44,853 nucleotides of DNA from Defluviicoccus sp. GTDB taxonomy: Bacteria; Pseudomonadota; Alphaproteobacteria; MPNO01. This document shows, in pieces, positions 5,716-27,216 of this stretch. Below the pieces are notes generated by a model. It made no database searches and was not told where the DNA came from. It saw nothing but the letters and a program-made list of their open reading frames with translations. A program made the position numbers and the translations under genes. Positions within the stretch are counted from its first letter, which is position 1; the number at the start of each line of letters is the position of its first letter. Where the stretch lies: positions 1 through 44,853 of the forward strand of contig JAPPIT010000002.1 of assembly GCA_028820505.1 (NCBI GenBank), read 5' to 3'.

Positions 5716-6066
5716 GGATCCGATCGAACTCCGGGCCGCTCCTCCATACGGCCCCGCTACCGGTGGGAGGGCTCTTCCGGGTCCGGGTTGTCCGGACGGG
5801 TCGAATCCCGGCCCATGTAGACGCCGCGCTCCCAGCTGCGCCCGAGGGGATCGGCAACGCCGATCTCCATGCGTCCGATGCCGGCGGTCTCGATCTCCGC
5901 CATACCCACGCCGCTCACCCGTTTCCTGCCGCGGGAGGAGATCGACCGGCTCCACCGGGTGCCGGTGCGCTCGATGACGGCGGCGGATCGCAGAAAGACG
6001 ACTCCAGCCTGCCGCCGGCGCGAGGGTTGATCGCGTACAATTCGGGTCCGCGCCCGCGAAGAACCG
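5716..6066. other. 350-bp gap without a recognised gene
   Basis: Between the hydroxyacid dehydrogenase and the convergent hydrolase. A minus-strand frame stays open from 5757 into the hydrolase gene, and its part near 5757-5900 (a stretch beginning MAEIETAGIGRMEIGVADPL) has a coding-like composition, but there is no Shine-Dalgarno sequence before its internal ATG and I do not recognise it. It may be the degraded tail of a lost gene. No terminator hairpin was seen. Confidence 0.3.
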
Positions 6067-6957
6067 TCAGGGCAATCCGCGGGGCGGCCCCAGGCCATCG
6101 ATGAACCCGCGCAGCGAATGGTTGAACGCATCCACTTGCTCGCGGAACGAAAAGTGACCCGCCTGGTTGAGTACGACCATCCGGGCGTGGCGTTCGGTCG
6201 CCGCGATCACGTCGAACAGCGCCTGACCCTGGGCGATCGTCGCGGTGGGATCGTTGTAACCCCACATTACCTGCGTGGGGCGGCGCACGCCCTGGTCGCG
6301 CAGCCGGGCGAAGGTGTCCTCCTTGTCCCGGGCGAGACGGGGCATGAAATATGAGGACCGGAGCCCCCCGGCTTCCATTTTTTCCAAAGCCTCTCGGCCT
6401 TTCGGCAGGGCCGCGACGGCACAGACCTCATCGAGCCAGGCCTCCGTGATGTGCCCGGTGCCGTACGAATAGCGCTCGATGATCCAGCGCTGGCTCTCGC
6501 GGCTCAACCTGGGCTCGGGCGGGTTGGCGAGCACGATCTCGCTTCGCGGAACTCCCGGCGCCAGCGTATTGGAGTCGACGACGACGCAGGAGCGGATACG
6601 CTCGGGATGGTCGAGGGTGAGCCGGCAAACCAAGTAACCGCCGCGCGAGTGCCCGACGACGTGGACGTCCTCAAGCCCAAGCGCCGCCAGGAACCCGTGG
6701 GCGTGCCGGACCACCGCCGCCATGCTGTAATCGTCGTTCTTCGGGTTGTCGGTATAGCCCTGGCCCAGCTTGTCGACCGCGAACACGCGATACCACCGGC
6801 TCAGACCCTGGACGTTGAGTTCCCAGTCCCACGCCGACTCCGCCAGATTCTGCGACCCGAATTGACCACCGTGGAACAGCACCAGCGGCGCGCCCTCGCC
6901 GGCCGTGAAATAGCGTGTCCGGATTCCGTCCACTTCGATGAATTTGGCTTCGTTCAT
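6067..6957 (-). CDS. Alpha/beta-fold hydrolase (MhpC/BphD-like)
   Basis: A 296-residue alpha/beta hydrolase. The nucleophile elbow is GHSRGG with S104, the acid is D236 in MWGYNDP, and the histidine is H268 in NQAGHFSF, so the triad is complete. The oxyanion-hole HGG lies near residues 29-31. The family includes carbon-carbon hydrolases of meta-cleavage products as well as esterases and epoxide hydrolases. The general look (ring-fission-product hydrolase) and the catabolic surroundings suggest a role in aromatic breakdown, but this is inference. I chose ATG 6957 (MNEAKFIEVDG), the usual start of the fold; ATG at 6996 is an alternative adding 13 residues. It is divergent from the TTT binding-protein gene. 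Confidence 0.85.
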   Translation of the reverse strand: MNEAKFIEVDGIRTRYFTAGEGAPLVLFHGGQFGSQNLAESAWDWELNVQGLSRWYRVFAVDKLGQGYTDNPKNDDYSMAAVVRHAHGFLAALGLEDVHVVGHSRGGYLVCRLTLDHPERIRSCVVVDSNTLAPGVPRSEIVLANPPEPRLSRESQRWIIERYSYGTGHITEAWLDEVCAVAALPKGREALEKMEAGGLRSSYFMPRLARDKEDTFARLRDQGVRRPTQVMWGYNDPTATIAQGQALFDVIAATERHARMVVLNQAGHFSFREQVDAFNHSLRGFIDGLGPPRGLP

Positions 6958-7301
6958 CGACCCGGCCAGCCTTGCCCCTGTCGGTCTTGCCGCCATCTCC
7001 GTCTCTTGAACTTCATTGTCATGGGGTGCGTCCGGCTTCGCAACCCGCACTGCCCTCCCCGGCTGGTCCGGTGTCTGGCCTGACCCGGGAAGAGCGGTCG
7101 GGTTCGACCGACGAAACGCCGTTGCCGGCGGTCGCGATCGGTCGGACAGCCGCAATTCGCGGCTGCGGCAGGAACCCGATCGTTTGGAATATCGTTCTGG
7201 ACGGGCAGCAAAACTGTATCTCGCCGAAAACGACATCTGTTAAGCTCACTTGCAAAAAGCGAAACGTGACAACCACGTTCGTCAATGAAGGAGGAAACGA
7301 A
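6958..7301. promoter_or_regulatory. Intergenic region between divergent hydrolase and TTT operon
   Basis: About 340 bp that should hold the promoters of both divergent genes. Close to the TTT binding-protein gene, the right end is less GC-rich and contains the inverted repeat AACGTG-N5-CACGTT (7263-7279), 8 bases before the Shine-Dalgarno sequence AAGGAGG (7288-7294). This is a possible operator or leader hairpin. No convincing -35/-10 pair was found. Confidence 0.35.
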
Positions 7302-8399
7302 ATGAGAGCCATATCTCGCCTGTTCATGGGTCTCGCCGGTCTCGCGCTCGTCTCCGGGATCGGATCGGCTACGGCTCATGCGCAGTTCTACAAGGGCAAG
7401 ACCCTCAACGTGATCATCAACTATGCGCCAGGCGGCAACACCAGCATCCAGGGTCGGCTGCTCATGCGGTTCATGCCCAAATACATCCCGGGCACGCCAC
7501 GAGTGGTCATTCGCAACATCGCCGGCGCGGGCGGCAAGGTCGGAACCAATTTTCTCGGCATCAAAGCCAAGCGCGACGGCTACACGATGGGCGTTTTCAC
7601 GATCAGCCTGCTGAGCGAGGTCCTCAAGGATCCGGCGCTGCAGGTCAGCCACTCCGACCTGATCTTCATCGGCGGTCTCGGCTCCCAGGAAGTCGCCTAT
7701 ATCCGCAAGGACCATCCGCCGGGCATCCAGAAGCCTTCGGACCTGTTCAAGATCACAGAGCCGTTCAGGACCGGCGGCCATGCGCCGACCAATACCAAGG
7801 ACATGGGCACCCGGCTCGCCCTCGACCTTCTGAAAGTGCCGTATCGTCATGTGCACGGCTTCAAGTCGGGCGCAATGCTGCGCAAGGCGGTACAGCAGAA
7901 CGAGCTTCAGTACTCTTCCGACTCGACGCCCGGGTTCCGCGGCCGGGTCGAGCCCATCATGGTAAAGGAAGGGATCGTCACGCCGCTGTTCCATACAGGC
8001 GTTCCGACCCCGGACGGCAAGGGCCTGACGGCGCATCGCGACTACCCGGACGTCCCGAGCTATCTCGACCTATACCGCATGAAGTTCGGCAAGGACGCCA
8101 TGCCCTCCGGCAAGCTGTGGGAGGGTTATCTGCTGATCTCGGTGATGCGGGCCAATATCCTGCGGGCCGTGTTCCTGCCGCCCAACTCGCCTCAGGAAGC
8201 GGTGGACATCCTACGCAAGGCCTACGACGCGACGATGAAGGACCCGCAATACCTGGAGGAATACAAGAAGCTCAACAAGGGCCTGCCCTCGCCGATCAAG
8301 GGAGAGCCGGGACAAAAGTTCTTGCTCGATCAGGTGAAGAACGCCGACCCGGAGTTGGTAGCTTTCCTGACGGCTTACGCCGACAAGGTCCGCAAGTGA
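7302..8399 (+). CDS. TTT-family solute-binding protein (TctC/Bug)
   Basis: A 365-residue extracytoplasmic binding protein of the tripartite tricarboxylate transporter family. A Sec signal peptide (MRAISRLFMGLAGLALVSG...) ends at AHA-Q near residue 27. The first strand of the mature protein, GKTLNVIINYAPGGNTS, is the diagnostic Bug-family start with the ligand-binding glycines. A very strong Shine-Dalgarno sequence (AAGGAGGAAA) precedes ATG 7302. Bug proteins deliver carboxylates (citrate, tricarballylate, aromatic acids and others) to the TctA/TctB membrane part. The fused permease follows after a 13-bp stem hairpin. The ligand is unknown. Confidence 0.9.
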   Translation: MRAISRLFMGLAGLALVSGIGSATAHAQFYKGKTLNVIINYAPGGNTSIQGRLLMRFMPKYIPGTPRVVIRNIAGAGGKVGTNFLGIKAKRDGYTMGVFTISLLSEVLKDPALQVSHSDLIFIGGLGSQEVAYIRKDHPPGIQKPSDLFKITEPFRTGGHAPTNTKDMGTRLALDLLKVPYRHVHGFKSGAMLRKAVQQNELQYSSDSTPGFRGRVEPIMVKEGIVTPLFHTGVPTPDGKGLTAHRDYPDVPSYLDLYRMKFGKDAMPSGKLWEGYLLISVMRANILRAVFLPPNSPQEAVDILRKAYDATMKDPQYLEEYKKLNKGLPSPIKGEPGQKFLLDQVKNADPELVAFLTAYADKVRK

Positions 8400-8441
8400 T
8401 CGGCCAACGTCCTGATGCATTCATGACGGGTTAGTCTCCCT

Positions 8442-8470
8442 GCGCCCCGGAAGGTCTCCTTCCGGGGCGC
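8442..8470 (+). terminator. Perfect 13-bp hairpin between binding-protein and permease genes
   Basis: GCGCCCCGGAAGG, loop TCT, CCTTCCGGGGCGC: a perfect inverted repeat ending 18 bases before the permease ATG, with no T-tract. Such hairpins commonly protect the upstream message or attenuate transcription, so that the binding protein is made in excess over the permease. That role is inferred from position. Confidence 0.7.
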
Positions 8471-8488
8471 CAAGAAGGCGGTTCCCTG

Positions 8489-10453
8489 ATGTGGGATGCG
8501 GCATTCGACGGCCTCGCTCTCGTCGTTCAGTGGCCGGCGGGCGGATACTTGCTGCTCGGCCTGGCGATCGGCATGTATTTCGGCGCGGTGCCCGGACTCT
8601 CCGGGCTTGTCGGGATGGCGATTCTCCTGCCCTTCACTTTCGGCATGGAGCCCGCCTGGGCCTTCGCCTTCCTGATGGGCATGTATTCGATCACCACCAC
8701 CAGCGACACCATCTCGTCGGTTCTTCTCGGCATCCCCGGCACCGCGGCCTCGCAGGCCACCATCCTCGACGGTTACCCGCTGGCGCAGAAAGGGCAGGCA
8801 TCGCGCGCCTTCGGGGCCGCGTTCACGGTGTCCGCGGTGGGCGGCGTGCTCGGCGCACTCGTGCTGGCCCTTTCGATCCCCATCGTCAGGCCGCTGATCC
8901 TCTCCTTCGCTTCGCCCGAGTTCTTCATGCTCGGGCTGCTCGCCCTCACCATGGTGGGCGCGCTGAGCGGTAGCTCGATCCTGAAAGGGCTGATCGCCGC
9001 GATTCTCGGCCTCATCCTGTCGATGATCGGCTACTCGCCCGAGGGCGCGATACCGCGCTATTCGTTCGATACCACCTATCTGATCGACGGGCTGCCGCTG
9101 ATTCCGTTCGTGCTCGGGCTGTTCGCCTTGCCGGAACTGCTCGAACTCGCGGTTCGGGACACCTCGATCTCGCGCATTCCGCGCGAGCAGGCGAAGACCG
9201 GCCTCCTCACCGGCATGATCGATGCCGTCCGCAATTGGTGGCTGGTGGTGCGCTGCACCCTGATCGGCGTCTATATCGGCCTGCTCCCGGGGGTGGGCGG
9301 CTCGCTGGTCGACTGGGTCGCCTACGGTCACGTGGTGCAGAGCTCGAAGAAGAAGTCCGAGTTCGGCAAGGGCGACATCCGCGGCGTGATCGCACCGGAG
9401 ACCGCGAACAACGCCATGAAGGGCGGGTCGCTGATCCCCACCATCGCCTTCGCCGTCCCGGGCAGCGCGTCGATGGCGATTCTCCTGGTCGCGTTCGAGA
9501 TCCAGGGGCTCGAGCCGGGGCCGCAGCTCCTCACCACCAAGCTCGACATCACCTTCAGCCTGATCTGGGCGCTCGCGCTCGGCAACATCCTGGGCGCCGT
9601 CTTCCTTCTCATCTGGGGCCGCCAGGTGGCAAAGCTCACCTTCATCCGAGGCCACCTGATCGTGCCGGCGATCACGATGTTCGTGTTCATGGGCGCCTGG
9701 CTCGCGGGCAACGGTCTGGGCGATTGGTTCACCCTGATCTTCGCCGGCATCCTCGGCTACGTCATGAAGCAGAGCGGATGGCCGCGACCGCCTGTCATAC
9801 TGGGCTTCATCCTGGGCACCATCATGGAGGTTTCGCTCCACATCTCGATGCGGAGCTACGACTACAGCTGGCTCGGGCGCCCCATCGTGCTGATCCTCGC
9901 CGTACTGATCGTGCTGGGGCTTTTCGTGGGCGTGCGCGGCATGCTGCGCCGGCGGGCGGCGCCGGCGGGCGTGCAGATCGACGATTCCGCCGCGCAAAAC
10001 CCGGCGCTGTCTCTCCCCTTCGCCGTCCTTCTGCTTGGCGCTCTCGTCTACGGGCTGGTTCTGGCGGCGGAGTGGCATCACGCCGCGCGGTTCTTCCCCT
10101 TCATCGTGATGGTCACCGGCATCCCGCTCGTCCTCGTGGTCATGTTCCACGACTGGAGCGACATCAGATTGCGCATCGGCCAGGCGGTGAGCGTCGCGGG
10201 CGACGCCCATGACCGGAAACTGCTGCTCTCCGGCGCGCATTACTTCGCCTGGATGTTCGCCATACTCGTCGCCACCGTCCTTATCGGTCAGTTCCTGGCA
10301 ATCGTGGTCTTCGTTCCCGCCTATCTCTGGTACTGGGGCGGTTACAGCTGGCGGCTGTTCGTCCCCTACGCCGCCGGTGCGGCGGTCTTCCTCTACGTCA
10401 TGTTCGAGCAGATCGTTCCCGTCTTCTGGTATGAGTCGGTGATCTTCTCGTAG
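8489..10453 (+). CDS. TTT-family permease, TctA-TctB fusion
   Basis: A 654-residue integral membrane protein. Residues 1 to about 485 are a TctA large permease. Hallmarks are YFGAVPGLSGLVGMAILLP near the N-terminus, the SVLLGIPGTAAS motif, and its repeat near the middle, GLLPGVGGSLVDWVAY. The last 150 or so residues (from about 510) form four hydrophobic segments with the spacing and late YVMFEQIVPVFW pattern of the small subunit TctB, which is usually a separate protein. They resemble the free-standing TctB at 16000-16512. The protein should therefore supply both membrane subunits for the binding protein encoded just upstream, with uptake driven by an ion gradient. ATG 8489 follows AAGAAGG. 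An alternative reading, that the tail is only an extended TctA C-terminus, is less likely because of its length and TctB-like pattern. Confidence 0.88.
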   Translation: MWDAAFDGLALVVQWPAGGYLLLGLAIGMYFGAVPGLSGLVGMAILLPFTFGMEPAWAFAFLMGMYSITTTSDTISSVLLGIPGTAASQATILDGYPLAQKGQASRAFGAAFTVSAVGGVLGALVLALSIPIVRPLILSFASPEFFMLGLLALTMVGALSGSSILKGLIAAILGLILSMIGYSPEGAIPRYSFDTTYLIDGLPLIPFVLGLFALPELLELAVRDTSISRIPREQAKTGLLTGMIDAVRNWWLVVRCTLIGVYIGLLPGVGGSLVDWVAYGHVVQSSKKKSEFGKGDIRGVIAPETANNAMKGGSLIPTIAFAVPGSASMAILLVAFEIQGLEPGPQLLTTKLDITFSLIWALALGNILGAVFLLIWGRQVAKLTFIRGHLIVPAITMFVFMGAWLAGNGLGDWFTLIFAGILGYVMKQSGWPRPPVILGFILGTIMEVSLHISMRSYDYSWLGRPIVLILAVLIVLGLFVGVRGMLRRRAAPAGVQIDDSAAQNPALSLPFAVLLLGALVYGLVLAAEWHHAARFFPFIVMVTGIPLVLVVMFHDWSDIRLRIGQAVSVAGDAHDRKLLLSGAHYFAWMFAILVATVLIGQFLAIVVFVPAYLWYWGGYSWRLFVPYAAGAAVFLYVMFEQIVPVFWYESVIFS

Positions 10454-10485
10454 CCGCGAGACCGGCATCGACGGGGTTGGCAGCG

Positions 10486-12123
10486 ATGACGAATCCGGCG
10501 TGGCTCACCATCGCCCAGGCATCCCATCTGATCGCGCGCGGGGCGCTGTCGCCGGTCGAGCTGACCGGGGCCTGTCTGCGCCGGATCGAGGCGCTCGACC
10601 CCCAGATCTCCGCCGTCGTGACCCTCGCCGGCGAGCGGGCAATCGAGGCCGCACGCCGGGCAGAGGCGGAGATCGCCAAGGGCCGTTGGCGCGGCCCCAT
10701 GCACGGCATCCCCTTCGGCCTCAAGGACATATACGACACGGCGGGGATACGCACGGCCGGGCAATCGCGCATCGCGATGGACAACGTGCCGGCGAAGAAT
10801 GCCGCCGCGGTGGACCGTCTCCACGCGGCCGGCGCCATTCTTCTCGGCAAGCTGACCACCCATGAATTCGCCCGCAGCGGTCCGGCCTTCGACCTTCCCT
10901 GGCCGCCGGCGCGCAATCCGTGGGACCCGATGCGGGTGCCCGGCGGCTCGTCGAGCGGCTCCGCCGCCGCCGTCGCCGCGGGTTTCCTCCCGGCGGCCCT
11001 CGGCACCGACACGGGAGGTTCGATCCGCAGCCCGGCCGGGCTGTGCGGCGTCGTCGGGCTCAAGCCGAGCTACGGCCGGGTGAGCCGGCGCGGGGTCATG
11101 CCCAACGCGTTTTCGCTGGACCATTGCGGGCCGATGACGTGGAGCGTCGAGGACTGCGCCATCGTCCTCGGCGCCATCGCCGGTGCCGACCCTCTGGACC
11201 CGTCAAGCGCGGCGCGCCCCGTCCCGGATTATCGCGCCACTCTATTCGAAGGCGCCAAGGGCCTGCGGGTCGGTGCGATCCGGCATTTCTGGGAACTGGA
11301 ACAGCCGGCGTCACCCGCCGTCCGCGAGGCCATGGAAACCGCGATCGAGGTGCTGCGCGACCAGGGGGCGGCAGTCGAGGAGGTGCGGCTCCGGCCGCTA
11401 GCCGATTTCAACGCCGTCAAGATCGCCCTCGGCGAAACCGAGGTCTACGCCGTCCACCAATCCAACGTTGTCGCCCGGCTCGACGAGTTCGGCATCGATT
11501 TCCAGAAGCGGATCGTCGCCGCGTGCCTGATCGGCACTCCGGCCTACATCCAGGCGCAACGCGAGCGGCGTCGAATGATCGCCGAGACGATGCCCGTGTT
11601 CGAGCGCTTCGACGTGCTGCTGACGGCGACCGGCACTCGCGCGGCGCGCCCTTTCGGCGCGGCGTCGCGACCTGCAGCCTGGACCGAGGCCGGAACGACC
11701 GCGCCGTTCAACGTTCTGGGCCTGCCCGCCCTCTCGCTTTGCAACGGCTTCGACGCGGACGGATTGCCGCTCGGTATGCAGATCGTCGGCCGCCCCTTCG
11801 ACGAGGCGACCGTCCTGCGGGTCGCCCACGCCTACGAGGCCGCCACGCGATGGCAAACCCGTCGGCCGGCGCTTGTCCCGGGGGCGAAGCCGGCGCCTGT
11901 GGGTCCGCCGCCCGCGCAATCGCCGGACAGTCCCGACGGATCCACCCGGGCCTTCGTGGATGCGATGCTCGCCCGGGCAGGACTCTCGCCCTCCGACGCC
12001 GTTCGCGCCGCGGCCTACGCCGCCGCGCCCGCCGTGCTGGAAGCCATGGGCTCGCTTCCCCGCGACCACGCCTTCTCCGAGGAGCCCGCGGCGGTGTTCG
12101 GCGTCCCAACGGCTGAAGACTGA
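10486..12123 (+). CDS. Amidase-signature-family amidohydrolase with AtzG-like tail
   Basis: A 545-residue amidase-signature enzyme. The catalytic triad is K80 (GLKDIYDT), S155 (GGSSSGS) and nucleophile S179 (GTDTGGSIR); the 24-residue step between the serines is canonical. It hydrolyses an amide, or is a GatA relative used in catabolism. The last 55-60 residues (from FVDAMLARAGLSPSDAVRAA) resemble the DUF4089/AtzG-like small domain, which in the cyanuric-acid system is a separate partner of the AtzE amidase; here it appears fused. The gene follows the TTT permease by 32 bp in the same direction and is probably co-transcribed, so the transported carboxylate may be linked to an amide. I chose ATG 10486; a TTG three codons earlier is possible. 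Confidence 0.87.
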   Translation: MTNPAWLTIAQASHLIARGALSPVELTGACLRRIEALDPQISAVVTLAGERAIEAARRAEAEIAKGRWRGPMHGIPFGLKDIYDTAGIRTAGQSRIAMDNVPAKNAAAVDRLHAAGAILLGKLTTHEFARSGPAFDLPWPPARNPWDPMRVPGGSSSGSAAAVAAGFLPAALGTDTGGSIRSPAGLCGVVGLKPSYGRVSRRGVMPNAFSLDHCGPMTWSVEDCAIVLGAIAGADPLDPSSAARPVPDYRATLFEGAKGLRVGAIRHFWELEQPASPAVREAMETAIEVLRDQGAAVEEVRLRPLADFNAVKIALGETEVYAVHQSNVVARLDEFGIDFQKRIVAACLIGTPAYIQAQRERRRMIAETMPVFERFDVLLTATGTRAARPFGAASRPAAWTEAGTTAPFNVLGLPALSLCNGFDADGLPLGMQIVGRPFDEATVLRVAHAYEAATRWQTRRPALVPGAKPAPVGPPPAQSPDSPDGSTRAFVDAMLARAGLSPSDAVRAAAYAAAPAVLEAMGSLPRDHAFSEEPAAVFGVPTAED

Positions 12124-12192
12124 CGGTGGAGTGCGGCGAGACTTCGCCCTCGCACAAACGCGGCCGCACCGGCCATGATCCGATGACCCGTC

Positions 12193-12221
12193 TTCTAGTC
12201 TCCCCGTACGGCGTCTATACT
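12193..12221 (+). promoter_or_regulatory. Candidate -10 element upstream of the VOC gene
   Basis: TATACT at 12216-12221 lies 54 bp before the VOC start. The -35 position (TTCTAG, 12193-12198) is a poor match, so the promoter would need help or is weak. The 150-bp gap after the amidase holds no gene. Confidence 0.3.
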
Positions 12222-12274
12222 CGACTGTCACACAACGAGAACCCGAACCGGCCTCTTTTCGGAGGAGAAACAAA

Positions 12275-12682
12275 ATGCCCCAGATCCGGCACCTTGCGAT
12301 CGTCTCGCTCAATCCGGAGAAGCTTGCCAAGTTCTACGAGGAGGTCTTCGACATGGAGCTCCTCAACTCCGGCAACGGCGCCTACTACATGACCGACGGC
12401 CACATCACCCTTGCCCTGCTGCCCAACAAGGCCGAGGGCAAGCCGAGCGGCCTCAATCATTTCGGCTTCCAGATCGAAGATGCCGACGAGATCGCGCGCC
12501 GGCTGGAAGAACACGGCATGGCGCGACCGGCGGAACGGCCGGCCGACCGACCCTATGCCGAGACACGTGCGACCGACCCCGACGGCAACAATTACGACCT
12601 CTCGGTCCACGGCTATCAGAAGTCGGAGACCAAGTTCGACCGCCTGGCCAAGGAGCCGGAGTTGGAAACGGAACCCGTCTAG
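12275..12682 (+). CDS. VOC-family (glyoxalase/dioxygenase fold) protein
   Basis: A 135-residue single-domain member of the vicinal-oxygen-chelate superfamily. It starts MPQIRHLAIVSLNPEKLAKF, with the first metal-type histidine in RHLAI; a second is in GLNHFGFQI. The TDPDGNNYDLSV segment is the usual final strand, but the acidic ligand found there in most family members is not obvious. A strong Shine-Dalgarno sequence (CGGAGGAG) precedes the ATG. Single-domain VOC proteins act as dimers and may be lyases, isomerases, dioxygenases or resistance proteins, so no reaction can be assigned. It is a short transcription unit convergent with the CapA-family gene, with a 31-bp gap. Confidence 0.84.
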   Translation: MPQIRHLAIVSLNPEKLAKFYEEVFDMELLNSGNGAYYMTDGHITLALLPNKAEGKPSGLNHFGFQIEDADEIARRLEEHGMARPAERPADRPYAETRATDPDGNNYDLSVHGYQKSETKFDRLAKEPELETEPV

Positions 12683-12713
12683 CGGCGGCGATTCCGGATA
12701 AGCGGGTCGGGCA

Positions 12714-14075
12714 CTAAAGGGCGACGATGCCGACGGAGCCGTCGATCGCGAGCTCGGTGCCATAGCGACCGGACAGGCGCCGCAGGTTTTCGAGAACGCT
12801 CGCCGCGAGCTTCCCGTCGGCCAGCAACGGACGGCCGCGCTGCGAGCGGGGACGGCCGTAGCCGAGATCGATCGGGTAGAACCGCAACTCGCTGCCGCCC
12901 TGTTTCCGCAAACGGCAGATGCAGGCGGCGCCTTGCCAGAACCCGGGCGAAGCGGGATGTCCCTTGGTGTCGTTCTCGGTCCGCGCATCCAGAAAGTCGG
13001 CGGGGGTTGCCTCCATGCCGAGGTCGAACCGGCTGTAGGCCTGCGCCGGAAAGGCGGAGATCGTCTCGTTCTGAAAGATGAAGTTGCCCATGCTGTAAAG
13101 AATGGGCCTGTCCTTATAGACCTCGACCCCGAGCAGGGTATGCGATCCGTGGCCTACGAAGACATCGGCGCCCGCGTCGATGGCGGCGTGCGCGAACTCG
13201 CGGGTGAAGTCGGCGAGCTCCTCCAGCTCGGCGCGCGACCGCGCGGTCATCAGGCCGCGCCCGCCGAACTCGTGGCTGTGAAATGCGACGACGACCCAGT
13301 CGGCCTGACGCCGGGCTTCGCGGATCCATCTCAGATTGTCGGCCATGTCGGCCTGGTCAACCCGGGTCTCCATCGCGAATTCGTCGCCTGAAACGAAGCT
13401 CTGGCCGAACAGGCGGATCTCCTCGGCGGCTTCGTCGGGAACTTCCTGCGCGCCGAAGAAATGCCGTCGGTCGCGCTCCTTCGCGCGCTCGAATCCCAGC
13501 CCCTCGCTGATCCTCCGCAACGCGGCGAAGGTGTCGCCGTCCACGGTGTAGCGGGTGGCGTGCGCAAGCGGGTTGATCCCCGGCCGGCCCCCCATGTCGG
13601 GCCGCTGCGGTGCCGCCCGGTTCCACGGCTTGAAGGTCGCCGTCATCGCCACCGCCGCGACCCGTCCGTTGGGCGTTTCGAGATAGCCGGGTGCGCGCGC
13701 TTCGGCCAGGTTGGCGCCCGAGCCCGCATGTGCGATTCCGGCCGCGTCGAGATGGGCGATACAGGCCATCAACCCGCCTTCGCCGTAGTCGAAGGAATGG
13801 TTGTTGGCGCAGGTCAGCAGGTTGATGCCCATCCACTTGAGGTCCTCGAGGCAGACCGGCGGGATGGTCACATAGGTGCCTTCGGTGATGCCGGGCGTCC
13901 CCTCGTCCCAGTTCCGAACCGTGCCTTCGAGATTCGCCAGAATCGCATCCGCGCCGCGCAGCAGGTCGACCAGGGCGAGGTAGCGTTCCTCGGCGAAGCA
14001 GGCGAGGCGCCGCGTCGGCATTGCGTCACCCAGCAAAGCGACGGCAATTTCGCCTTTCTCCGACTGATACAGCAT
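12714..14075 (-). CDS. CapA-family metallophosphatase-fold protein
   Basis: A 453-residue protein of the CapA family (poly-gamma-glutamate capsule type), built on a calcineurin-like metallophosphatase fold. The metal-site motifs occur in order: LLGDAMPTRR, ANLEGT, CANNHSFDYG, VVAFHSHEFGG, GADVFVGHGSH and LYSMGNFIFQ. Capsule-synthesis CapA proteins are membrane-anchored; this one has no signal peptide or transmembrane segment, so it is probably cytoplasmic, and no capB/capC genes are nearby. Similar soluble CapA proteins are common in alphaproteobacteria with unknown substrates. It lies 72 bp downstream of the flavoprotein gene on the same strand and may be co-transcribed. Confidence 0.87.
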   Translation of the reverse strand: MLYQSEKGEIAVALLGDAMPTRRLACFAEERYLALVDLLRGADAILANLEGTVRNWDEGTPGITEGTYVTIPPVCLEDLKWMGINLLTCANNHSFDYGEGGLMACIAHLDAAGIAHAGSGANLAEARAPGYLETPNGRVAAVAMTATFKPWNRAAPQRPDMGGRPGINPLAHATRYTVDGDTFAALRRISEGLGFERAKERDRRHFFGAQEVPDEAAEEIRLFGQSFVSGDEFAMETRVDQADMADNLRWIREARRQADWVVVAFHSHEFGGRGLMTARSRAELEELADFTREFAHAAIDAGADVFVGHGSHTLLGVEVYKDRPILYSMGNFIFQNETISAFPAQAYSRFDLGMEATPADFLDARTENDTKGHPASPGFWQGAACICRLRKQGGSELRFYPIDLGYGRPRSQRGRPLLADGKLAASVLENLRRLSGRYGTELAIDGSVGIVAL

Positions 14076-14147
14076 CTGTCCCTGTGCCTCTCGCAGTCGG
14101 TCCCGCCGCAGGGCAGATGATATCTGCCCCGGTATTCGCTGACGGCT

Positions 14148-15632
14148 TCAGTTGTTGCGGGCGGCCGCGTTCTCGCCTGCCACCCTGCTGAACACGGCAT
14201 TGCGGGTCTGGCCGGTGCAGGACGGGTAGTTGTGGTAGAAGAGCCCGACGACATCGCCCGAGGCATAGAGCCCCTGGATGGCGCGTCCCGACGTGTTGAT
14301 GACTTCCATCGCGGTGTTCGCCCGCACGCCGCCGAACGAGAAAGTTACCCCGCAGGTGACGGCATAGGCGCGGAACGGCGGCTCGTCGATTCGCGTCGCC
14401 CAATTGGTCTTCGGGGGCTCGATGCCGGACGTCGAACGGCCGTCGAGGCGGGAGGGATCGAACGCGACGTCGTCGCTGATGGCGGCGTTGTAATTGTCCA
14501 CGGTGTGGGTCAGCACTTCCGGATGGAGGCCGATCATAGGTGCGAGCTCTGCGATGGTCGGTGCCTCGACATAGGTATCGGTATAGTCCGGCCCGAGGCG
14601 GAAGAGCCGAATCCCCTGCTGATCGAAGATCTGGTAGGCGACGCTGCCGGGCTGGGCAAGCACGCGGCGCCCGGTCTTGGCGTAGGTGTAGGACAGGTTC
14701 GCCTCGCCCTCGTCGAAGAAGCGCCGGCCGGCCGAATTCACGGTGATGCCGAACATGTAGTCATAGCGGTTCGCCGTGTTGCTGTGGCCGTCGGCGCGCG
14801 CCGGCGTGGCGCCGTCGGACGCGCCGGCGTCGATCGGGGTGGCGTGCGCGCCCTGCCAGTGGCCGGCGGCTCCGGCGCCGAGGGCGAGCATCATGTTCAG
14901 CACCTCGCCCGTATCGTGGACGCTGCCCCGTACTTTCATCAGGTCGGCGTTGGGGCCGAGATAGCGTGCCCGCATCTCGGAGTTCGCCTGAAACCCGCCG
15001 GAACAGGCGATGACGGCGCGGCCGCGGATATCGTATTCGCCGTCGTCCGAGGAGACGCGCACCCCCTCGATGCGGCGATCGTTGCCGTGGAGTGCGACCA
15101 CGCGCGAGTCGTAGCGAATGTCGACGCCCATCCCGAGCGCGATCTCCCGCCAGCGCAGGAGCTGGCCGAGCCCGCCGCCGACCGAGTGAACGATAATGCC
15201 GGGTTCGAAATAATATCTTCCGTTGATCGGCGGATGCTGCTCGGGTTCGAACACGATTCCGACGTCGCGCATCCAGCGCACGGCGTCCAGGGAATTGTCG
15301 ACCATGAAGCCGGAGAGCACCGGGTCGATCCGTCCCTGGGTCACCCGATTGAGGTCGGCGAGGAAATCGTCCCGCGTATAGGGCGGCAAGTGGAAGGTCT
15401 GGAACAAATCCTCGTCGACATCCGGAATGATCTCCCGGATCTCGTCCGGCGTGTCGTAGACGAAGCGGAATCCGGTATGGGAATAGCGCGCGTTGCCGCC
15501 GAATTCGCGCTCCGGCGCCTTTTCCAGCATGACGATTCTTTCGGCGCCCGCCTGACGCGCGGCAACGGCTGCCTCGAACGCTGCGCTACCTCCGCCGATG
15601 ACGACGATATCGCATACCTCTTCCCGTGCCAT
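14148..15632 (-). CDS. FAD-dependent oxidoreductase, tricarballylate-dehydrogenase-like
   Basis: A 494-residue flavoprotein of the FAD_binding_2 (fumarate reductase/succinate dehydrogenase flavoprotein) family. The N-terminal dinucleotide motif is VVIGGGSAAFEAAVAARQAG, followed by GGNARYSHTGFRF, the pattern of TcuA-type tricarballylate dehydrogenases. The C-terminal FAD motif is GLYASGDVVGLFYHNYP. TcuA oxidises tricarballylate to cis-aconitate with electrons passed to TcuB; no tcuB homologue is present. A stand-alone TctB gene and a tctA stump lie upstream on the same strand, so oxidation of a tricarboxylate-like compound taken up by a TTT system was probably the original context. AGGGGGA lies 3 bases before the ATG. 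Family is firm; substrate is inferred. Confidence 0.87.
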   Translation of the reverse strand: MAREEVCDIVVIGGGSAAFEAAVAARQAGAERIVMLEKAPEREFGGNARYSHTGFRFVYDTPDEIREIIPDVDEDLFQTFHLPPYTRDDFLADLNRVTQGRIDPVLSGFMVDNSLDAVRWMRDVGIVFEPEQHPPINGRYYFEPGIIVHSVGGGLGQLLRWREIALGMGVDIRYDSRVVALHGNDRRIEGVRVSSDDGEYDIRGRAVIACSGGFQANSEMRARYLGPNADLMKVRGSVHDTGEVLNMMLALGAGAAGHWQGAHATPIDAGASDGATPARADGHSNTANRYDYMFGITVNSAGRRFFDEGEANLSYTYAKTGRRVLAQPGSVAYQIFDQQGIRLFRLGPDYTDTYVEAPTIAELAPMIGLHPEVLTHTVDNYNAAISDDVAFDPSRLDGRSTSGIEPPKTNWATRIDEPPFRAYAVTCGVTFSFGGVRANTAMEVINTSGRAIQGLYASGDVVGLFYHNYPSCTGQTRNAVFSRVAGENAAARNN

Positions 15633-15999
15633 GACTCCCCCTGATACTTGGTGTGACGATGCACCGGTCCGGCAGGTTGCTCGGACGCCGTGGGCGCCGT
15701 GGACGCCTGCACCGGGAGCCGACCGTCGAGATCTGTGCGGATCATTCTGGAAGCAGACTCACAACCCGTCAACGGCGTCCGATCCTCGGGCTGACGCATG
15801 AACGTCCGCGTCTCAGGGAAAGGGACTGCGCGGGGGCGGGTGCATAGATCGGGACCGGTCGAATTGAGGGATGGGAGAAGAGCGCGGCGCAGCCCGCCTT
15901 GGAAACCCATACCGGACAGCGGGGGACCGAGCCCCGCCATCGCGAAGGAAACGGCGCCCACGGTTCGATCCGAACCGGACAGGCTCCAACGCCGATCCG
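15633..15999. other. 367-bp gap upstream of the flavoprotein gene
   Basis: It contains no gene I can support. It should hold the promoter of the minus-strand flavoprotein/CapA unit, but I could not pick a convincing -35/-10 pair or operator. Confidence 0.4.
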
Positions 16000-16512
16000 T
16001 CACAGCGCTGTCGCCGCCCATCGATATACCGCACCGTCCAGCCAGGTTACGGTCAGCACACGATCGAACACCACGTACAAATAGCCGCCGGTGAACAAGG
16101 CGGCCGAGGATGCCGTGAGCCACCTGAAGCCGGCTTCGCAGCGCAGGAATCCGAGCATAAACAGCGGCATCGCAACCATCTGTCCAGGCAGCCAGGACAG
16201 ACCGATCACCGCGGCGATCCAGGCGAGCGGGCGGAGGGCCCGCACATGATCGCGATTTCCGGCCGGTGGCGGAGCGCTGTCGGGTTCCGGCGGCTCGTCC
16301 GCGACCGCGCTCCCGGAGGCCCGACCCGGGGCCCGCCGAGCGACGGCCGGGACAACGAGAAGTGCCCCGACCGCCGCCAACCCGGCCACACCGATCGCTT
16401 GCGGAAACAGGGCCGAACGGTAGTCCCACGCGCCCGCCTCGACGGCGAGAAAGACGAACACGGTGGCGAGAACGACCGAAACGAACAGATCGGCCCCGGT
16501 CCCCGCCCTCAC
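16000..16512 (-). CDS. TctB-family small permease subunit of a TTT transporter
   Basis: A 170-residue membrane protein with about four hydrophobic segments: ADLFVSVVLATVFVFLAVEA, a second near ALFPQAIGVAGLAAVGALLV, a third after the charged loop (PLAWIAAVIGLSWLPGQMVA) and a last one near LYVVFDRVLTVTWL. Size, segment spacing and the late FDRVL...W pattern fit TctB. The start is GTG 16512, with GGAGGGG 7 bases upstream; no ATG suits. It lies 44 bp downstream of the remains of a tctA gene on the same strand, so it has lost its usual partner and may no longer work unless it pairs with another TctA. Confidence 0.78.
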   Translation of the reverse strand: MRAGTGADLFVSVVLATVFVFLAVEAGAWDYRSALFPQAIGVAGLAAVGALLVVPAVARRAPGRASGSAVADEPPEPDSAPPPAGNRDHVRALRPLAWIAAVIGLSWLPGQMVAMPLFMLGFLRCEAGFRWLTASSAALFTGGYLYVVFDRVLTVTWLDGAVYRWAATAL

Positions 16513-16556
16513 CGTCGGCCCCTCCGGTAATCGCGGCGGAACTGCGCGTAGAGCGC

Positions 16557-16733
16557 TCAGACGGCGAGCGCGAAGATGACCAGCACCACCGGCCGCATCA
16601 GCCATTCGAAGCCGTAGACGTTGATCGAGAGGTGCAGGTAGCGTTCGAGCAGCGGGCCGACCGCGCCGGGGACCGGCGTCTTGCCGGCGGGGAGCGCGGC
16701 ATCCCCCGAGTTGTGGGCCGGCGGGAAGGGTGC
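16557..16733 (-). pseudogene. 3' stump of a deleted tctA permease gene
   Basis: An open frame of 58 codons directly before tctB, ending ...LLERYLHLSINVYGFEWL then MRPVVLVIFALAV. It aligns with residues 443-472 of the TctA part of the fused permease (GTIMEVSLHIS through RPIVLIL), 12 of 30 identical by eye. A TAG at 16734-16736 closes the frame upstream, and there is no start or Shine-Dalgarno sequence. More than 400 residues of TctA are missing. The break lies where the divergent binding-protein gene and its promoter begin, so a rearrangement there probably removed the gene. The gene order tctA then tctB matches the domain order of the fused permease. Confidence 0.75.
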
Positions 16734-16740
16734 CTATAGT
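16711..16740 (+). promoter_or_regulatory. Candidate promoter of the peptide-type binding-protein gene
   Basis: TTGTGG (16711-16716), 18-base spacer, TATAGT (16735-16740), 52 bp before the ATG at 16793. It overlaps the upstream end of the tctA stump on the other strand. The -10 context GCCTATAGT is identical to that of the ligJ promoter. Confidence 0.5.
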
Positions 16741-16792
16741 TTGTCGGCGAAACGGGACGCCCGGTCTCCGGGACGGGTACAGGGAGAAAATC

Positions 16793-18310
16793 ATGCCGAA
16801 TACGCGCGTCATCGCACTTGCGGCAGTTGTGGCCGTCGCCACCGCGCCCGCTTTGGCCCAGAAGTCGAAGAACACGCTCCGGATCGGTTTCTACGATCCG
16901 ATCCCGGGTGTCGATCTCGTCTACGACCCCAAGGGGGAGACCGCTCTGACCGCGCGGGCGGTGTTCGACACGCTCATCGGTTACGACGAGCGGACCAGGA
17001 AATTCAAGCCGCTGCTCGCCAAGTCCTGGAAGACGGTCAACCCGACGACCTACGAGTTCGTGCTGCGCGACGACGTCAGGTTCCATGACGGCTCGCCGTT
17101 GGATGCCGACGATGTGGTCTACACGCTGAACTTCCTCGCCGATCCCAAGGTCAAGTTCCGCATCAAGACCCGCTTCCTGTGGATCGCCAAGGCCGAGAAG
17201 GTCGACCGCCACACCGTCCGCGTCACCACCAAGGGGCCGCGCGCGGTCGCCATGGCGCGCTTCGCGGTCAGCATTCCCATCTTCCCGTCGGACGTTCACG
17301 GGGCGCTGAAGAACAAGGCGGCGTTCGGCAAGAAGCCGATCGGAACCGGCCCCTACAAGGTCGTTTCCTACGACCCGAACGAGGGCGTGCGCATGGTGCG
17401 CAACCCCGACTACCGCCACGGCCCGGCCGGGTCGATCGAGAACATCCACGTCCTGCCCATCCCCGACGTGCAGAACCAGGTCGCGCAGCTCATTACCGGC
17501 GGCCTCGACGTGATTCACAACGTGCCGAAGGATCAGGCGGACAATCTCGGGCAGAATCCCGAACTCGCGGTGACGGTGAGCAACGGGATCCTGTACCGCT
17601 ACATCGCGTTCGATGCGATCGGCCGGACCGGGAACGACGACCTCAAGGACGTTCGCGTGCGCCGCGCGCTGATCCACGCGATCGACCGGGATTCGATCCG
17701 CCGAAACATCTTCGCGGGCGGCGACGCGGTGCAGAAGATGGATTCGATCTGCAAGCCGATCCAGATCGGCTGCGTCTACGACGTCAAGCCGCCGGCCCAC
17801 GATCCCGGGAAGGCCAGGGCGCTGCTCAAGGAAGCCGGCAAGGCGGACCTCAAGCTCCAGATCACCACCCTGCCGGAAGCCCGCAAGGTCGCCGAGGCAA
17901 TCGTCGGTTACCTGAGGGCGGTCGGCGTCAAGGCGTCGATCAAGAGCGTGACGTTCGGCGCCTATCGCAAGCTGCAGAGGACCGGAAAGATCCAGACCCT
18001 GGTGCACCAGTTCAGCTCGGGCGGGGTTCCCGACACCGACGCTCTGGTCAGCTTCTATTTCGGCAGCAAGGCGCGCAACTATTACGGCGACAAGCAGATC
18101 GCCGGCTGGATGAAGGAGGCGGGCTCCAGCTTCGACATCGCGGCGCGCGAGGCGCTGTACCGGAAGATCTTCAACCGGATCAACGAGCAGGCCTATATCG
18201 TCCCGATCGCCAGCCTGCCCTCGGTCTTCGTCCACGCCAAGGACCTGGAGATCGACAAGGGGATCATCAACCCGTTCGGGGCGGAGATGAGCCGGATACG
18301 CTGGAAGTAG
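16793..18310 (+). CDS. ABC transporter substrate-binding protein, peptide/nickel family (SBP_bac_5)
   Basis: A 505-residue periplasmic binding protein. A signal peptide (MPNTRVIALAAVVAVATAP...) ends at ALA-Q near residue 22. Family motifs include LRIGFYDPIPGVD, LAKSWKTVNPTTYEFVLRDD, FHDGSPLDADDVVYTLNF, GTGPYKVVSYDPNEGV and the late ALIHAIDRDSIRRNIF. AGGGAGAA precedes ATG 16793. Proteins of this family bind peptides but also many other solutes. No permease or ATPase genes are adjacent, but a matching four-gene ABC set without a binding protein lies at 22.3-26.1 kb on the other strand, and the promoters resemble each other, so I infer that they work together. It is convergent with the NMT1-like gene, with only 6 bp between stops. 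Confidence 0.9.
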   Translation: MPNTRVIALAAVVAVATAPALAQKSKNTLRIGFYDPIPGVDLVYDPKGETALTARAVFDTLIGYDERTRKFKPLLAKSWKTVNPTTYEFVLRDDVRFHDGSPLDADDVVYTLNFLADPKVKFRIKTRFLWIAKAEKVDRHTVRVTTKGPRAVAMARFAVSIPIFPSDVHGALKNKAAFGKKPIGTGPYKVVSYDPNEGVRMVRNPDYRHGPAGSIENIHVLPIPDVQNQVAQLITGGLDVIHNVPKDQADNLGQNPELAVTVSNGILYRYIAFDAIGRTGNDDLKDVRVRRALIHAIDRDSIRRNIFAGGDAVQKMDSICKPIQIGCVYDVKPPAHDPGKARALLKEAGKADLKLQITTLPEARKVAEAIVGYLRAVGVKASIKSVTFGAYRKLQRTGKIQTLVHQFSSGGVPDTDALVSFYFGSKARNYYGDKQIAGWMKEAGSSFDIAAREALYRKIFNRINEQAYIVPIASLPSVFVHAKDLEIDKGIINPFGAEMSRIRWK

Positions 18311-18316
18311 ACGCGG

Positions 18317-19213
18317 CTATTCGGCAGCGATCGCCGTCACCACGGAGTCCGCGTAGCCGCCGGTTCCCCTGCTCTCCTCGGAGAACAGGTCCAGCTCCTC
18401 CATCCACTTGTGGGTGCGCTCGAACACCTCCCGGGTGTAGGGCTCGAAGACGAGGCGCTCGCCCGGCCCCATGCGGCGCACGTCGACCATCGCGCGATAG
18501 CGCTCCGGCAGCTCGCGCAGGAAATAGTGCGTGTAGCGTTCCGGTTCCACGTCGAGGTCGCGCTGGGCCCGGCGGAGCGCACGGAAATATTTCTCGACGT
18601 CCCCCATATCCGCGTCGTTGGTGATCAGCGAGCCGATCATGAAGGTGGTGTCGAGGATTTTCCGGAACCCGAGCTGTTCGAGCAGGTAGTAGGGCGCGCC
18701 GAACGCATTGCCGGCTTCGGCCTTGCCGTCGACCAGAAGCGCGAGGCGGTCCCACAGCACGCCGCCGAAATTGAGCGCGATCCGCTCGCGGTCGAGAAAG
18801 CGCAACAGCGCCTGGAGGGTCGAGTAGTGACTGCCCGAGTGGTAGCCGACCTGAACCGGAACGTCGGCCAGCGCCTCGGGCGTCCGGATCGGTGAATCGG
18901 GCGGCACGAAGATCGCCGAGGGCGTGACCGAATAGGCATCGCCCCACATCCGGCCGTGCCCGGCGGACGCCGCCATATTGACCGTCCAGTGGCAGGCCGC
19001 CGAGACGTTGCAGGCCCGGCCTCGCTCGTAGGACTCGAAGGCGCCGCGCTTGACCTCGTCGGGCGCCTCTTCGCTGCTCGCGACGGTCGCCGACCAGCTC
19101 GCCGGCTTGCCGAGCGCCAGCTCGTAGTCGAGCCCCTCGTCCGCGAAGTAGCCGTGCTCCTCGGCGATCCATTCCTGCAAACGGCCGTGCGACTGGATCA
19201 CGAATTTCGCCAT
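18317..19213 (-). CDS. NMT1/SsuA-type substrate-binding-fold protein without signal peptide
   Basis: A 298-residue protein starting MAKFVIQSHGRLQEWIAEEHGYF, whose first 40 residues follow the periplasmic-binding pattern of the NMT1/THI5/SsuA group (a domain-1 helix reading 'EEHGYFADEGLDYELALGK'). Further features are CNVSAACHWTVNMAASAGHG and a ligand-pocket-like region near VQVGYHSGSHYSTLQALL. No signal peptide or lipobox is visible, so it may be a cytoplasmic sensor or enzyme rather than a transport component. Its gene is divergent from the Rieske oxygenase (96-bp gap) and convergent with the ABC binding protein. The assignment to the fold is moderate; the ligand is unknown, with an aromatic acid being a guess from context. 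Confidence 0.65.
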   Translation of the reverse strand: MAKFVIQSHGRLQEWIAEEHGYFADEGLDYELALGKPASWSATVASSEEAPDEVKRGAFESYERGRACNVSAACHWTVNMAASAGHGRMWGDAYSVTPSAIFVPPDSPIRTPEALADVPVQVGYHSGSHYSTLQALLRFLDRERIALNFGGVLWDRLALLVDGKAEAGNAFGAPYYLLEQLGFRKILDTTFMIGSLITNDADMGDVEKYFRALRRAQRDLDVEPERYTHYFLRELPERYRAMVDVRRMGPGERLVFEPYTREVFERTHKWMEELDLFSEESRGTGGYADSVVTAIAAE

Positions 19214-19297
19214 GCGCCCTCTCCCGGTTCCGCGCCGGACCGGCATGGTCGATCCGGCGTCTTCGCCTGTCAATGCGCCGCCGGGCGGGATTGCGGC

Positions 19298-19309
19298 TAT
19301 ACTGCGGAC
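19298..19309 (+). promoter_or_regulatory. Candidate -10 element giving a leaderless Rieske mRNA
   Basis: TATACT at 19298-19303 is followed by only six bases (GCGGAC) before the ATG at 19310. Transcription would begin at or next to the start codon, and there is no Shine-Dalgarno sequence upstream. The string TACTGCGGACAT here is identical to a string just after the -10 box of ligJ. The inverted repeat CGCCGGA-N13-TCCGGCG at 19233-19259 lies upstream. The -35 region is weak. Confidence 0.4.
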
Positions 19310-20584
19310 ATGCTCGATCGCGAAACCAACCGGAAGCTCTCCCGGGTCGGCGCGGACACGCCGATGGGGGCATTGATGCGCCGCTACTGGCACCCCATCG
19401 CCGGGGCCTCCGAGATGGAACGCCGGCCCACCATGCCGATCCGGCTGATGGGCGAGAACCTGGTGCTCTACCGCGACCTTTCGGGCGGGTACGGGCTCCT
19501 GGATCGCCACTGCTGCCACCGGCGCGCCGATCTCTCATACGGCTACGTCGAGCCGAACGGGTTGCGGTGCAGCTATCACGGCTGGCTCTACGACGCCCGC
19601 GGCGCCTGTATCGAGCAGCCGTTCGAGGACACCGCCGACCCGGGTTCGCGGTTCAAGGACAAGGTCCGCATCAAGTCCTATCCGGTGGAGGAGAAGGCGG
19701 GGATGCTCTGGGCCTATCTCGGTCCCGACCCCGCGCCGCTGGTGCCGACCTGGGAACCGTTCACCTGGGCCAACGGCTTCCGCCAGGTGGTGATCTCGGA
19801 AATCCCCTGCAACTGGTTCCAGTGCCAGGAGAACTCGATCGATCCGGTTCATTTCGAGTGGCAGCACGAGAACTGGCGCGTTCGCGCGACCGGCGCGGCC
19901 GGTCCCTACGCGCCCAAGCACCTGCGGGTCGATTTCGAGGAGTTCGACTACGGGATCACCTACAAGCGGATCCGCGAGAACACGGACGAGCATCACCCGC
20001 TATGGACCGTCGGGCGCAACTGCCTGTGGCCGAACGCACTGTTCACCGGCGATCATTTCGAATGGCGGGTTCCGATCGACGACGACAACACGTTGAGCGT
20101 GGGATGGTTCTTCAACCCGGTGCCGAAGGGCCGGCGGCCGTTCGCCCAGAACGAGATTCCCTGCTGGCGCGGCCCGATAAAGGACGACGACGGGCGCTGG
20201 ATCACCAGCCACGTGATGAACCAGGACTTCGTCGCCTGGGTCGGACAGGGCACGCTCGCCGACCGCTCGAAGGAGCATCTCGGGCGCAGCGACCGGGGCG
20301 TCATCATGATGCGCAGGCGGTTCCTTTCCGACATGGACCTTGTCGAACGGAACCAGGACCCCAAGGCCGTCGTCCGCGATCCGGAGGTCAACGACTGCAT
20401 CGAGCTTCCCATCTTCGACCGCGATTTCTTCGTCGACGGGTGGGAGCCCAAGGACCTTCGGGATGCGGCGCATGTGCGCACGCGCTCGACGCTCAACTTC
20501 GTCTTCCAGGCCGGCCAGCCCGCGGAGGTTCGGGCGGCCTATGTCGACGCGATGGGGCTCGACGGCGAAGGCGGCTTCCGTTGA
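19310..20584 (+). CDS. Rieske non-haem iron oxygenase, phthalate-dioxygenase type
   Basis: A 424-residue oxygenase component. The Rieske [2Fe-2S] ligands are C68-C-H70 (DRHCCHRRAD) and C87-S-Y-H90 (CSYHGW). The catalytic mononuclear iron site is N175...D178-P-V-H181...H186 (ENSIDPVHFEWQHE). Length and motif spacing match single-component-oxygenase families such as phthalate 4,5-dioxygenase and related O-demethylases, which act as trimers with a separate reductase. No reductase or ferredoxin gene is in the window. The reaction would be hydroxylation or demethylation of an aromatic acid. It converges on the extradiol dioxygenase operon, which fits a role in feeding a di- or trihydroxybenzoate into ring cleavage. 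Start ATG 19310 is preferred although there is no ribosome-binding site (see the upstream element). Confidence 0.9.
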   Translation: MLDRETNRKLSRVGADTPMGALMRRYWHPIAGASEMERRPTMPIRLMGENLVLYRDLSGGYGLLDRHCCHRRADLSYGYVEPNGLRCSYHGWLYDARGACIEQPFEDTADPGSRFKDKVRIKSYPVEEKAGMLWAYLGPDPAPLVPTWEPFTWANGFRQVVISEIPCNWFQCQENSIDPVHFEWQHENWRVRATGAAGPYAPKHLRVDFEEFDYGITYKRIRENTDEHHPLWTVGRNCLWPNALFTGDHFEWRVPIDDDNTLSVGWFFNPVPKGRRPFAQNEIPCWRGPIKDDDGRWITSHVMNQDFVAWVGQGTLADRSKEHLGRSDRGVIMMRRRFLSDMDLVERNQDPKAVVRDPEVNDCIELPIFDRDFFVDGWEPKDLRDAAHVRTRSTLNFVFQAGQPAEVRAAYVDAMGLDGEGGFR

Positions 20585-20635
20585 ACCGCCCCGGTCGCGC
20601 CGCGGACCGGCCGGTTCGCACGGCAACGCCGGGGT

Positions 20636-21646
20636 TCAGGTCCAGCAAACGAAGGCGTTGGCGGTCCCGGTGCCCGCCAGCGACCGGTAGCAGGGGACGT
20701 AGTCGATCACGTCGCCGCCGAGCCCGGTGCCGAAAAGCACGCCCGCCGCGACGATCCAGTTGCGGAGTTCGGACGAACCCGATTGCAGCAGGTCCTGCTC
20801 GATGCCGCAAAGACCCTCCTCGTCGCGGTCGCAGAACGCCTCGAGGAACCGCCGGTCGAGATCCTCGTCGATGCAGAAATGCGACATGCCGCCCGAACCG
20901 ACGACCGCCACGCGGGCGGGCGAGTCCCAGTCGCGGATCGCGCGCCCGATCATCGCCCCGAAGTCGAAGCAGCGCCGCGCGGTGGGCTGGTTCGGCGGGT
21001 AGAATGTGTTGGCGATCACCGGCAGGGTCGGAACCGCGCGGTCGCGCATGATCCGGCGCAGGACGAAGCTGAAGGCGTGCGGCGTGCCCACATGACGATG
21101 GTTCCGGTGCTTTAGCCACTCGTTCGAGGCGGCGAGGTCGAACCCCTCCTCCATCGCGCGCGCGAAAACGAGCTCGGCCAGGTCCGGCAGGCCCGGATAG
21201 ACGGTGTGACGCGCCGGCCGATAGGCCCATTCGGCATCGCCGACGCCGGGCGGCAGCTTGGCCTTCTGCGCCGCGCTGGTCGGCCGGTTGTAGAAGGTCT
21301 CGCCGCGATAGACGGTGAAGGTCGGCTGGATGTCTTCGAGAAACAGCTCGCGCTGGTCGTTGCCGAGGATCACGCAGGCATCCGGCTCCATTTCCTCCCA
21401 TCTGTCGGCAAGCGCCTTAATCCCGGCCTGGCAGGCGTCGTAGCGCCGCCGGCGCTCGTCGTCGGCGATCCATGCCGCGATGTCCTCCCCCGACCGTCGC
21501 TCGACCAGCTCGTCGAAGGTGAAGCGCTCGCCCTTGAACCAGTGCTCGTTCACCAAATCGGCCTTGACGCGCTCGCCCCATTGGTCGGGGGTCGTGTTGA
21601 GGGTCGGCCCGTGGGTCGTCCACATGCCCAGAACGATTTCCGCCAT
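20636..21646 (-). CDS. LigB-type extradiol ring-cleavage dioxygenase
   Basis: A 336-residue class III extradiol dioxygenase related to the beta subunit of protocatechuate 4,5-dioxygenase and to gallate/3-O-methylgallate dioxygenases. H12 (MWTTHGPTL) matches an iron ligand of LigB; further conserved features are GNDQRE near 95-100, H190 (HVGTPHAFSF, candidate base) and GSGGMSHF near 250. No separate LigA-type alpha subunit gene is present and there is no fused LigA domain, so it is likely a single-subunit enzyme. It is the last gene of the ligJ operon; its ATG overlaps the preceding stop by one base (TGATG). With LigJ and the aldolase, the natural product of cleavage would be 4-oxalomesaconate or its methyl ester, so gallate or a methylgallate is the favoured substrate (inference). 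Confidence 0.85.
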   Translation of the reverse strand: MAEIVLGMWTTHGPTLNTTPDQWGERVKADLVNEHWFKGERFTFDELVERRSGEDIAAWIADDERRRRYDACQAGIKALADRWEEMEPDACVILGNDQRELFLEDIQPTFTVYRGETFYNRPTSAAQKAKLPPGVGDAEWAYRPARHTVYPGLPDLAELVFARAMEEGFDLAASNEWLKHRNHRHVGTPHAFSFVLRRIMRDRAVPTLPVIANTFYPPNQPTARRCFDFGAMIGRAIRDWDSPARVAVVGSGGMSHFCIDEDLDRRFLEAFCDRDEEGLCGIEQDLLQSGSSELRNWIVAAGVLFGTGLGGDVIDYVPCYRSLAGTGTANAFVCWT

Positions 21647-25217: not shown

Positions 25218-25225
25218 CGGCTTCC

Positions 25226-26143: not shown

Positions 26144-26170
26144 CGGCGGCTCTCCGGCTAGCGGCGACGC

Positions 26171-27184: not shown

Positions 27185-27216
27185 GTCCCCTCCGCTCGTC
27201 CAGCGATGTCCGCAGT

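Follow-up and report, generated by a model that had tools for sequence, protein, structure and literature searches.

A tctA remnant and an orphan tctB at a rearrangement junction in Defluviicoccus sp.

In a 44,853-nt stretch of Defluviicoccus sp. DNA (contig JAPPIT010000002.1, henceforth called the window), a multi-break rearrangement very probably cut the gene tctA and joined its 3' part to a moved cassette (S), so that tctB was left with a stub as its neighbour. The broken and intact forms of the locus, the tct-side break (to within a few bases), the old and new neighbours of S, and the join between psuG and the TRAP block T (psuG|T) were all observed directly. The window is one contig of a 228-contig draft assembly (G000; 3.6% contamination), and its features, together with the loci of relatives used for comparison, are collected in Table 1.

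Table 1. Features of the window around the junction, and the tct loci of relatives.
Feature	Position or accession	Strand	Remarks
Fumarylacetoacetate-hydrolase gene remnant	5750..5959		Inverted; 3' end and upstream sequence kept, ~1 kb in between lost
tct block	6050..16660		Collinear with G002 C34 (from 6058) and with G004 C90 to 16627; aligned pieces 85-90% identical
TcuA-type FAD-dependent tricarballylate dehydrogenase	14148..15632	-	NF006130, 460.6 bits (cut-off 369)
Orphan tctB	16000..16512	-	170 aa, GTG start; PF07331
Remaining tctA 3' end, past the new stop	16509..16556	-	ALYAQFRRDYRRGRR plus old stop; same residues in intact L107
In-frame TGA	16557..16559	-	TGG in G002, L107 and G004
tctA remnant, in frame	16560..16660	-	33 codons (16560-16658, GPLLERYLHLSINVYGFEWLMRPVVLVIFALAV) plus 2 bases up to the break
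Junction filler	16661..16687		~27 bp, without notable match to either side
Start of cassette S, upstream of the binding-protein gene	16688..16792	+	Common to relatives, weakly so from 16688 and clearly so from 16707-16710
ABC substrate-binding protein gene, family 5, complete	16793..18310	+	PF00496, 1.2e-77
Rest of cassette S: NMT1-like gene (-), Rieske protein gene (+)	18317..20602		Collinear in G002, G004, G001, G003 and G018
G002 locus	MPNO01000050.1 (C34)		Defluviicoccus sp. bin129; intact tct operon
G004 locus	JAJDVM010000095.1 (C90)		Defluviicoccus sp. jk18x22bins.41; broken tct locus
L107 locus	JAPPNV010000361.1		Rhodospirillales bacterium RHO3_bin_80; tctC-like, tctA and tctB intact

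When 97 genomes, among them that of the window, were searched with the TctB region, two besides the latter gave close orthologs, namely G002 (84% identical) and G004 (two pieces in different frames, 71 and 78% identical), all remaining listed matches being 36% identical or less; a TctB scan of the genome collection returned three loci, namely the G002 and G004 contigs and L107. The genomes of the window, G002 and G004 belong to one genus. The operon of G002 is ordered alpha/beta hydrolase (PF07859), TctC-like, tctA, tctB and tcuA, and its tctA (12017-13495) encodes 492 aa (PF01970, 417 bits). The TctC-like protein of G002 scores under the Pfam cut-off (14.7 bits vs 27), shares 31% identity (366 columns) with the TctC-like protein encoded at 7305-8396 of the window, and has three PDB matches, all of them TTT-type binding proteins (weak, E 0.001-0.03). 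The contig of L107, 91.8% identical to G002 over 4.5 kb, follows its gene order as far as tctB and ends short of tcuA. As a whole tctA stands directly upstream of an orthologous tctB in both relatives (G002 and JAPPNV010000361), TctA once preceded the tctB of the window; the doubts that the sequence-only reading had raised against itself (that the 58 codons before tctB might be part of a different gene, or that no TctA ever preceded this tctB) are thereby removed. That reading had recognized in the 58-codon frame the end of TctA, had considered the upstream 90% of the gene gone, and had seen in the locus a rearrangement that left an orphan TctB: the remnant at 16560-16660 is identical to the intact tctA of G002 in 99 of 101 bp, the window retains 152 of the 1479 bp of tctA (reference G002; ~90% lost), and tctB, which adjoins an intact tctA in G002 and L107, here adjoins only the remnant.

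Collinearity with G002 extends over 6058-16660 and no further: window 15874-16660 aligns to G002 11381-12168 at 90%, and homology ends at base 16660, inside the 16.5-16.8 kb interval where it had been proposed that alignment to relatives with an intact locus (here G002, with tctA-tctB-tcuA, and L107, with tctA-tctB) would place the break. The longest exact words that the junction (16662-16709) shares with either side measure 10-11 bp, no microhomology is demonstrable there, and the relatives retrieved all lack this exact join. The long matches of the G002 tctA in G000 are paralog-like (65-67% identical), and across G000, G001, G003, G004 and G005 the G002 tctA-tctC stretch finds long tctA matches at 65-68% identity, with higher values in short patches, the remnants themselves among them. 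The tctC-like part of G002 is met in G000 only as a 65-bp patch; no close copy of the lost tctA or tctC-like gene was found in the G000 assembly, an absence that depends on this draft being complete. Beyond the opposite end of the tct block lies the remnant of a fumarylacetoacetate-hydrolase gene (matching L076:15751-15901 and 16905-16956), which in G002 is whole (PF01557) and adjoins a 2-hydroxyacid dehydrogenase gene. Gene debris is thus present on both sides of the tct block (6050-16660), which fits several breaks better than one deletion. The same end of the window is rich in repeats: those at 3-75, 121-391 and 3785-3910 occur in many copies in G000 and relatives, the first 6.1 kb has 115 matches in G000 (the window itself included), and 3-75 and 3785-3857 are inverted copies flanking a 3.7-kb segment.

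Seen on its own, the window looks as though a simple local deletion had removed the 5' part of tctA together with tctC, the binding-protein gene having already been the neighbour, and the lack of a close copy of the lost tct parts elsewhere in the genome agrees with such an event; the sequence-only reading likewise spoke of a deletion scar. We nevertheless regard a simple deletion as very unlikely, since S never adjoins the tct operon in the four further genomes examined from the genus (0/4; in G002 the two lie on different contigs), and since the deletion leaves unexplained what is found at the old site of S. In all four of these genomes (4/4), S has a psuG-type gene (PF04227 in G002) beside it and is followed by T (DctP PF03480, DctM PF06808), and in the window's genome psuG is located on contig C39, where it is joined straight to T at ~38285-38302, without S. 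Projected onto G001, the psuG side on C39 runs to about 2013 and the S side of the window begins at about 2004, so that the two sides seem to stem from one cut. Furthermore, the motif CCGGTTG, present at each edge of S in G001, recurs at the psuG|T join, which would fit, weakly (7 bp in G+C-rich DNA), the view that S was lost between short direct repeats. The many-copy repeat at the end of C39 is also the one with which the window opens (3-62), and our guess is that C39 and the window contig may be neighbours. The S of the window has after it, at 20634, a LigB-type gene (PF02900), which comes after T in G001 and G004. A second novel join is found there (20602-20634), where a 4.6-kb block (TRAP transporter and monooxygenase) present at this place in G001 and G004 is missing; G000 carries parts of this block on C39 and C15, and at the distal end of T the monooxygenase gene (PF01494 in G001) matches C15 at 84%.

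Cassette S measures 3.9 kb (spread over two contigs in G001), and the match of the window to its start begins at window position 16707 for G002 and 16710 for G001, is in pieces for G004, and begins for G003 only within the binding-protein gene, at 16802. It had been claimed that the promoter of the binding-protein gene lies on the break; this promoter is probably unbroken, as the sequence shared with relatives (from 16707-16710, weakly from 16688) starts before the TATAGT-like element, read by eye, at 16735-16740. A consensus promoter scan of 15600-16900 found no promoter near 16.7 kb, its one site (15772-15744, minus strand) being upstream of tcuA. Nor does the proposal that one transporter was replaced by part of another hold, since the window has an unbroken binding-protein gene and, at ~22.3-26.1 kb, ABC permease and ATPase genes as well. 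Within the rest of S the Rieske gene matches PF00355 (60.1 bits) and the NMT1-like gene scores 15.0 bits, under the cut-off of 20.5. Comparison of the outgroup G018 (L081, C145) with window 16844-27188 revealed an amidohydrolase-ABC block directly beside the binding-protein gene and divergent from it; in this genus the two stand apart, and the region upstream of the binding protein therefore seems to have been rearranged more than once.

A misjoining of a tct contig and an S contig during assembly would produce a junction without any genomic event, and a 228-contig draft with many-copy repeats is the kind of assembly in which it might occur. We observed, against this, that G000 holds no second copy of the junction DNA (of 16 matches to 16600-20600, only the window itself reaches the first 500 bases), that the two source regions, compared over 200 bp each, have no exact word in common longer than 13 bp in G002 or, when the G002 tct side is compared with G001, than 8 bp, that the remnant carries a stop mutation of its own, and that the site vacated by S is found closed on C39. 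The junction of the window is probably no assembly chimera, and we rate the misjoin as highly unlikely.

The open frame at 16557-16733 (minus strand; 58 codons and TGA) is composite: residues 26-58 are TctA, and residues 1-25 come from beyond the break and are not TctA. The 33 TctA residues (GPLLERYLHLSINVYGFEWLMRPVVLVIFALAV) are identical in the intact tctA of G002 and of L107. Among 10 TctA-family frames of the window's genome (picked by similarity to the G002 TctA), five match residues 25-58 with the end of their TctA domain at E 2.4e-5 or better (at best 17/34 identical, E 7e-10), one further frame does so weakly (E 0.05), and the other four give no match at E 1. The resemblance to the fused permease of the window, reported by the sequence-only reading as 12 of 30 identical residues, is real in kind and different in figure (14/34, E 2e-7). 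As the Pfam TctA model gives no match to so short a piece (the sole listed match in a Pfam scan of the 58-residue frame being one by chance, E 0.23), the identity of the frame was settled with the intact relatives. The old tctA stop overlaps the tctB start. A scan for ATG, GTG and TTG found no start before codon index 45 of the 58, and the frame is therefore not a gene of its own. The stub, matching the intact 3' end in the same place in a relative, truncated, with a new stop and no early start, has the attributes of a pseudogene and codes for nothing useful. That the frame is a live small gene is exceedingly unlikely given this late start, the origin of 25/58 residues past the break and the different, shorter stub retained by G004, even though all 33 residues are as in G002 and both base changes in the 101 bp are synonymous (by inspection).

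Under the rearrangement model, the ancestral operon would have consisted of the alpha/beta hydrolase gene, a tctC-like gene, tctA and tctB, with tcuA following ~300 bp on. A break inside tctA, 152 bp before its end, would have freed a 3' part that became joined, via the ~27-bp filler, to the moved 3.9-kb S (between psuG and T in relatives), and the stub would then have taken a nonsense mutation (TGG -> TGA). We infer both the mechanism (end joining or short homology) and the order of these events. Two observations count against the model in this form: the filler at the junction is not accounted for, and ~23 bp of the old S|T edge, which close S in the window and also open T on C39, are not predicted by a clean cut-and-move. 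The presence of this edge in both places suggests that S may first have been duplicated, with the original lost afterwards.

The tctA of G004, a second species, is broken as well (L042:10190-13211, on C90). Collinearity of the G004 tct block with the window ends at 16627, only the 3' end of tctA being left, and the locus differs from that of the window in having the break ~33 bp nearer tctB and, as new neighbour, a beta-lactamase-family (PF00144) gene, relatives of which lie on G002 C111 and G003 C152. Moreover, the G004 tctB is decayed (ATA for ATG, two frames). Quartet sites (596 gap-free columns) group the window with L107 and G002 with G004 nine times, the window with G002 and L107 with G004 twice, and the two broken copies never (0). 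With L107 and G002 intact and the quartet sites, few as they are, against joining the broken copies, the losses of tctA in the window and in G004 look apparently separate. A break hot spot at the 3' end of tctA was considered and rejected, as the chance that a second break falls within 33 bp on either side in 1479 bp is ~4.5%, and a coincidence of this order is too weak a ground.

The tctB of the window remains open, and its product scores 28.5 bits against PF07331, just below the cut-off of 29.1 (G002 ortholog 33.7). Its start is GTG (ATG in G002 and L107), preceded by GGAGG in place of the GGCGG of G002 and L107, and the gap between tctB and tcuA is 367 bp. The dN/dS of the window tctB branch has a bootstrap median of 0.32 (interval 0.13-1.0, up to 500 codon resamples), those of G002 and L107 being ~0.50 and ~0.21 (by division of branch values); the interval is as compatible with relaxed as with continued constraint. 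For the G002-L107 pair we obtained 0.34 for tctB, 0.13 for tctA and 0.11 for the tctC-like gene, so that tctB is loosely held even alongside an intact tctA. The window-G002 pair gave 0.09 for tcuA, 0.15 for the capA-like gene and 0.12 for the fused TctA-TctB. TctA, TctB and TctC are not encoded together at this locus, and tctB would appear to have lost its partner. With 10 TctA-family places in the genome, other partners exist. At 7305-10453, 6 kb from the break, sits a separate TTT set (a fused TctA-TctB of 654 aa and a TctC-like protein under the Pfam cut-off), and 8 of the 10 TctA places lie in open frames >600 aa, so that TctA-TctB fusion may be common in this genome. One could go on to suppose that the orphan TctB continues to be produced and works with a different TctA of the cell, that GGAGG and GTG replace translational coupling to the lost tctA, and that breaks may recur in the last 150 bp of tctA, given the apparently separate break in G004; we consider this chain of suppositions improbable. 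Were TctB shown to work without its own TctA, this would bear on the role of the small TTT subunit.

With intact relatives and a vacated site in the same genome, the locus presents a catabolic transporter operon broken by block rearrangement, beyond point decay alone, and two apparently separate losses of one tctA after which the fates of tctB differ (open in the window, decayed in G004). We regard the event as an ordinary scar of genome shuffling; none of the titles listed in a literature search concerns this locus, though it may still have been published. The window is collinear with the tctC-tctA-tctB TTT operon of G002 and JAPPNV010000361 over tctB and the final 152 bp of tctA (with G002 over tcuA as well), and differs from it in the cut tctA, the missing tctC and the presence of cassette S upstream. 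Gene remnants occur at rearrangement breakpoints in bacteria, and the short 3' stub with a stop mutation at the junction described here is likewise of this type, with no difference in kind.
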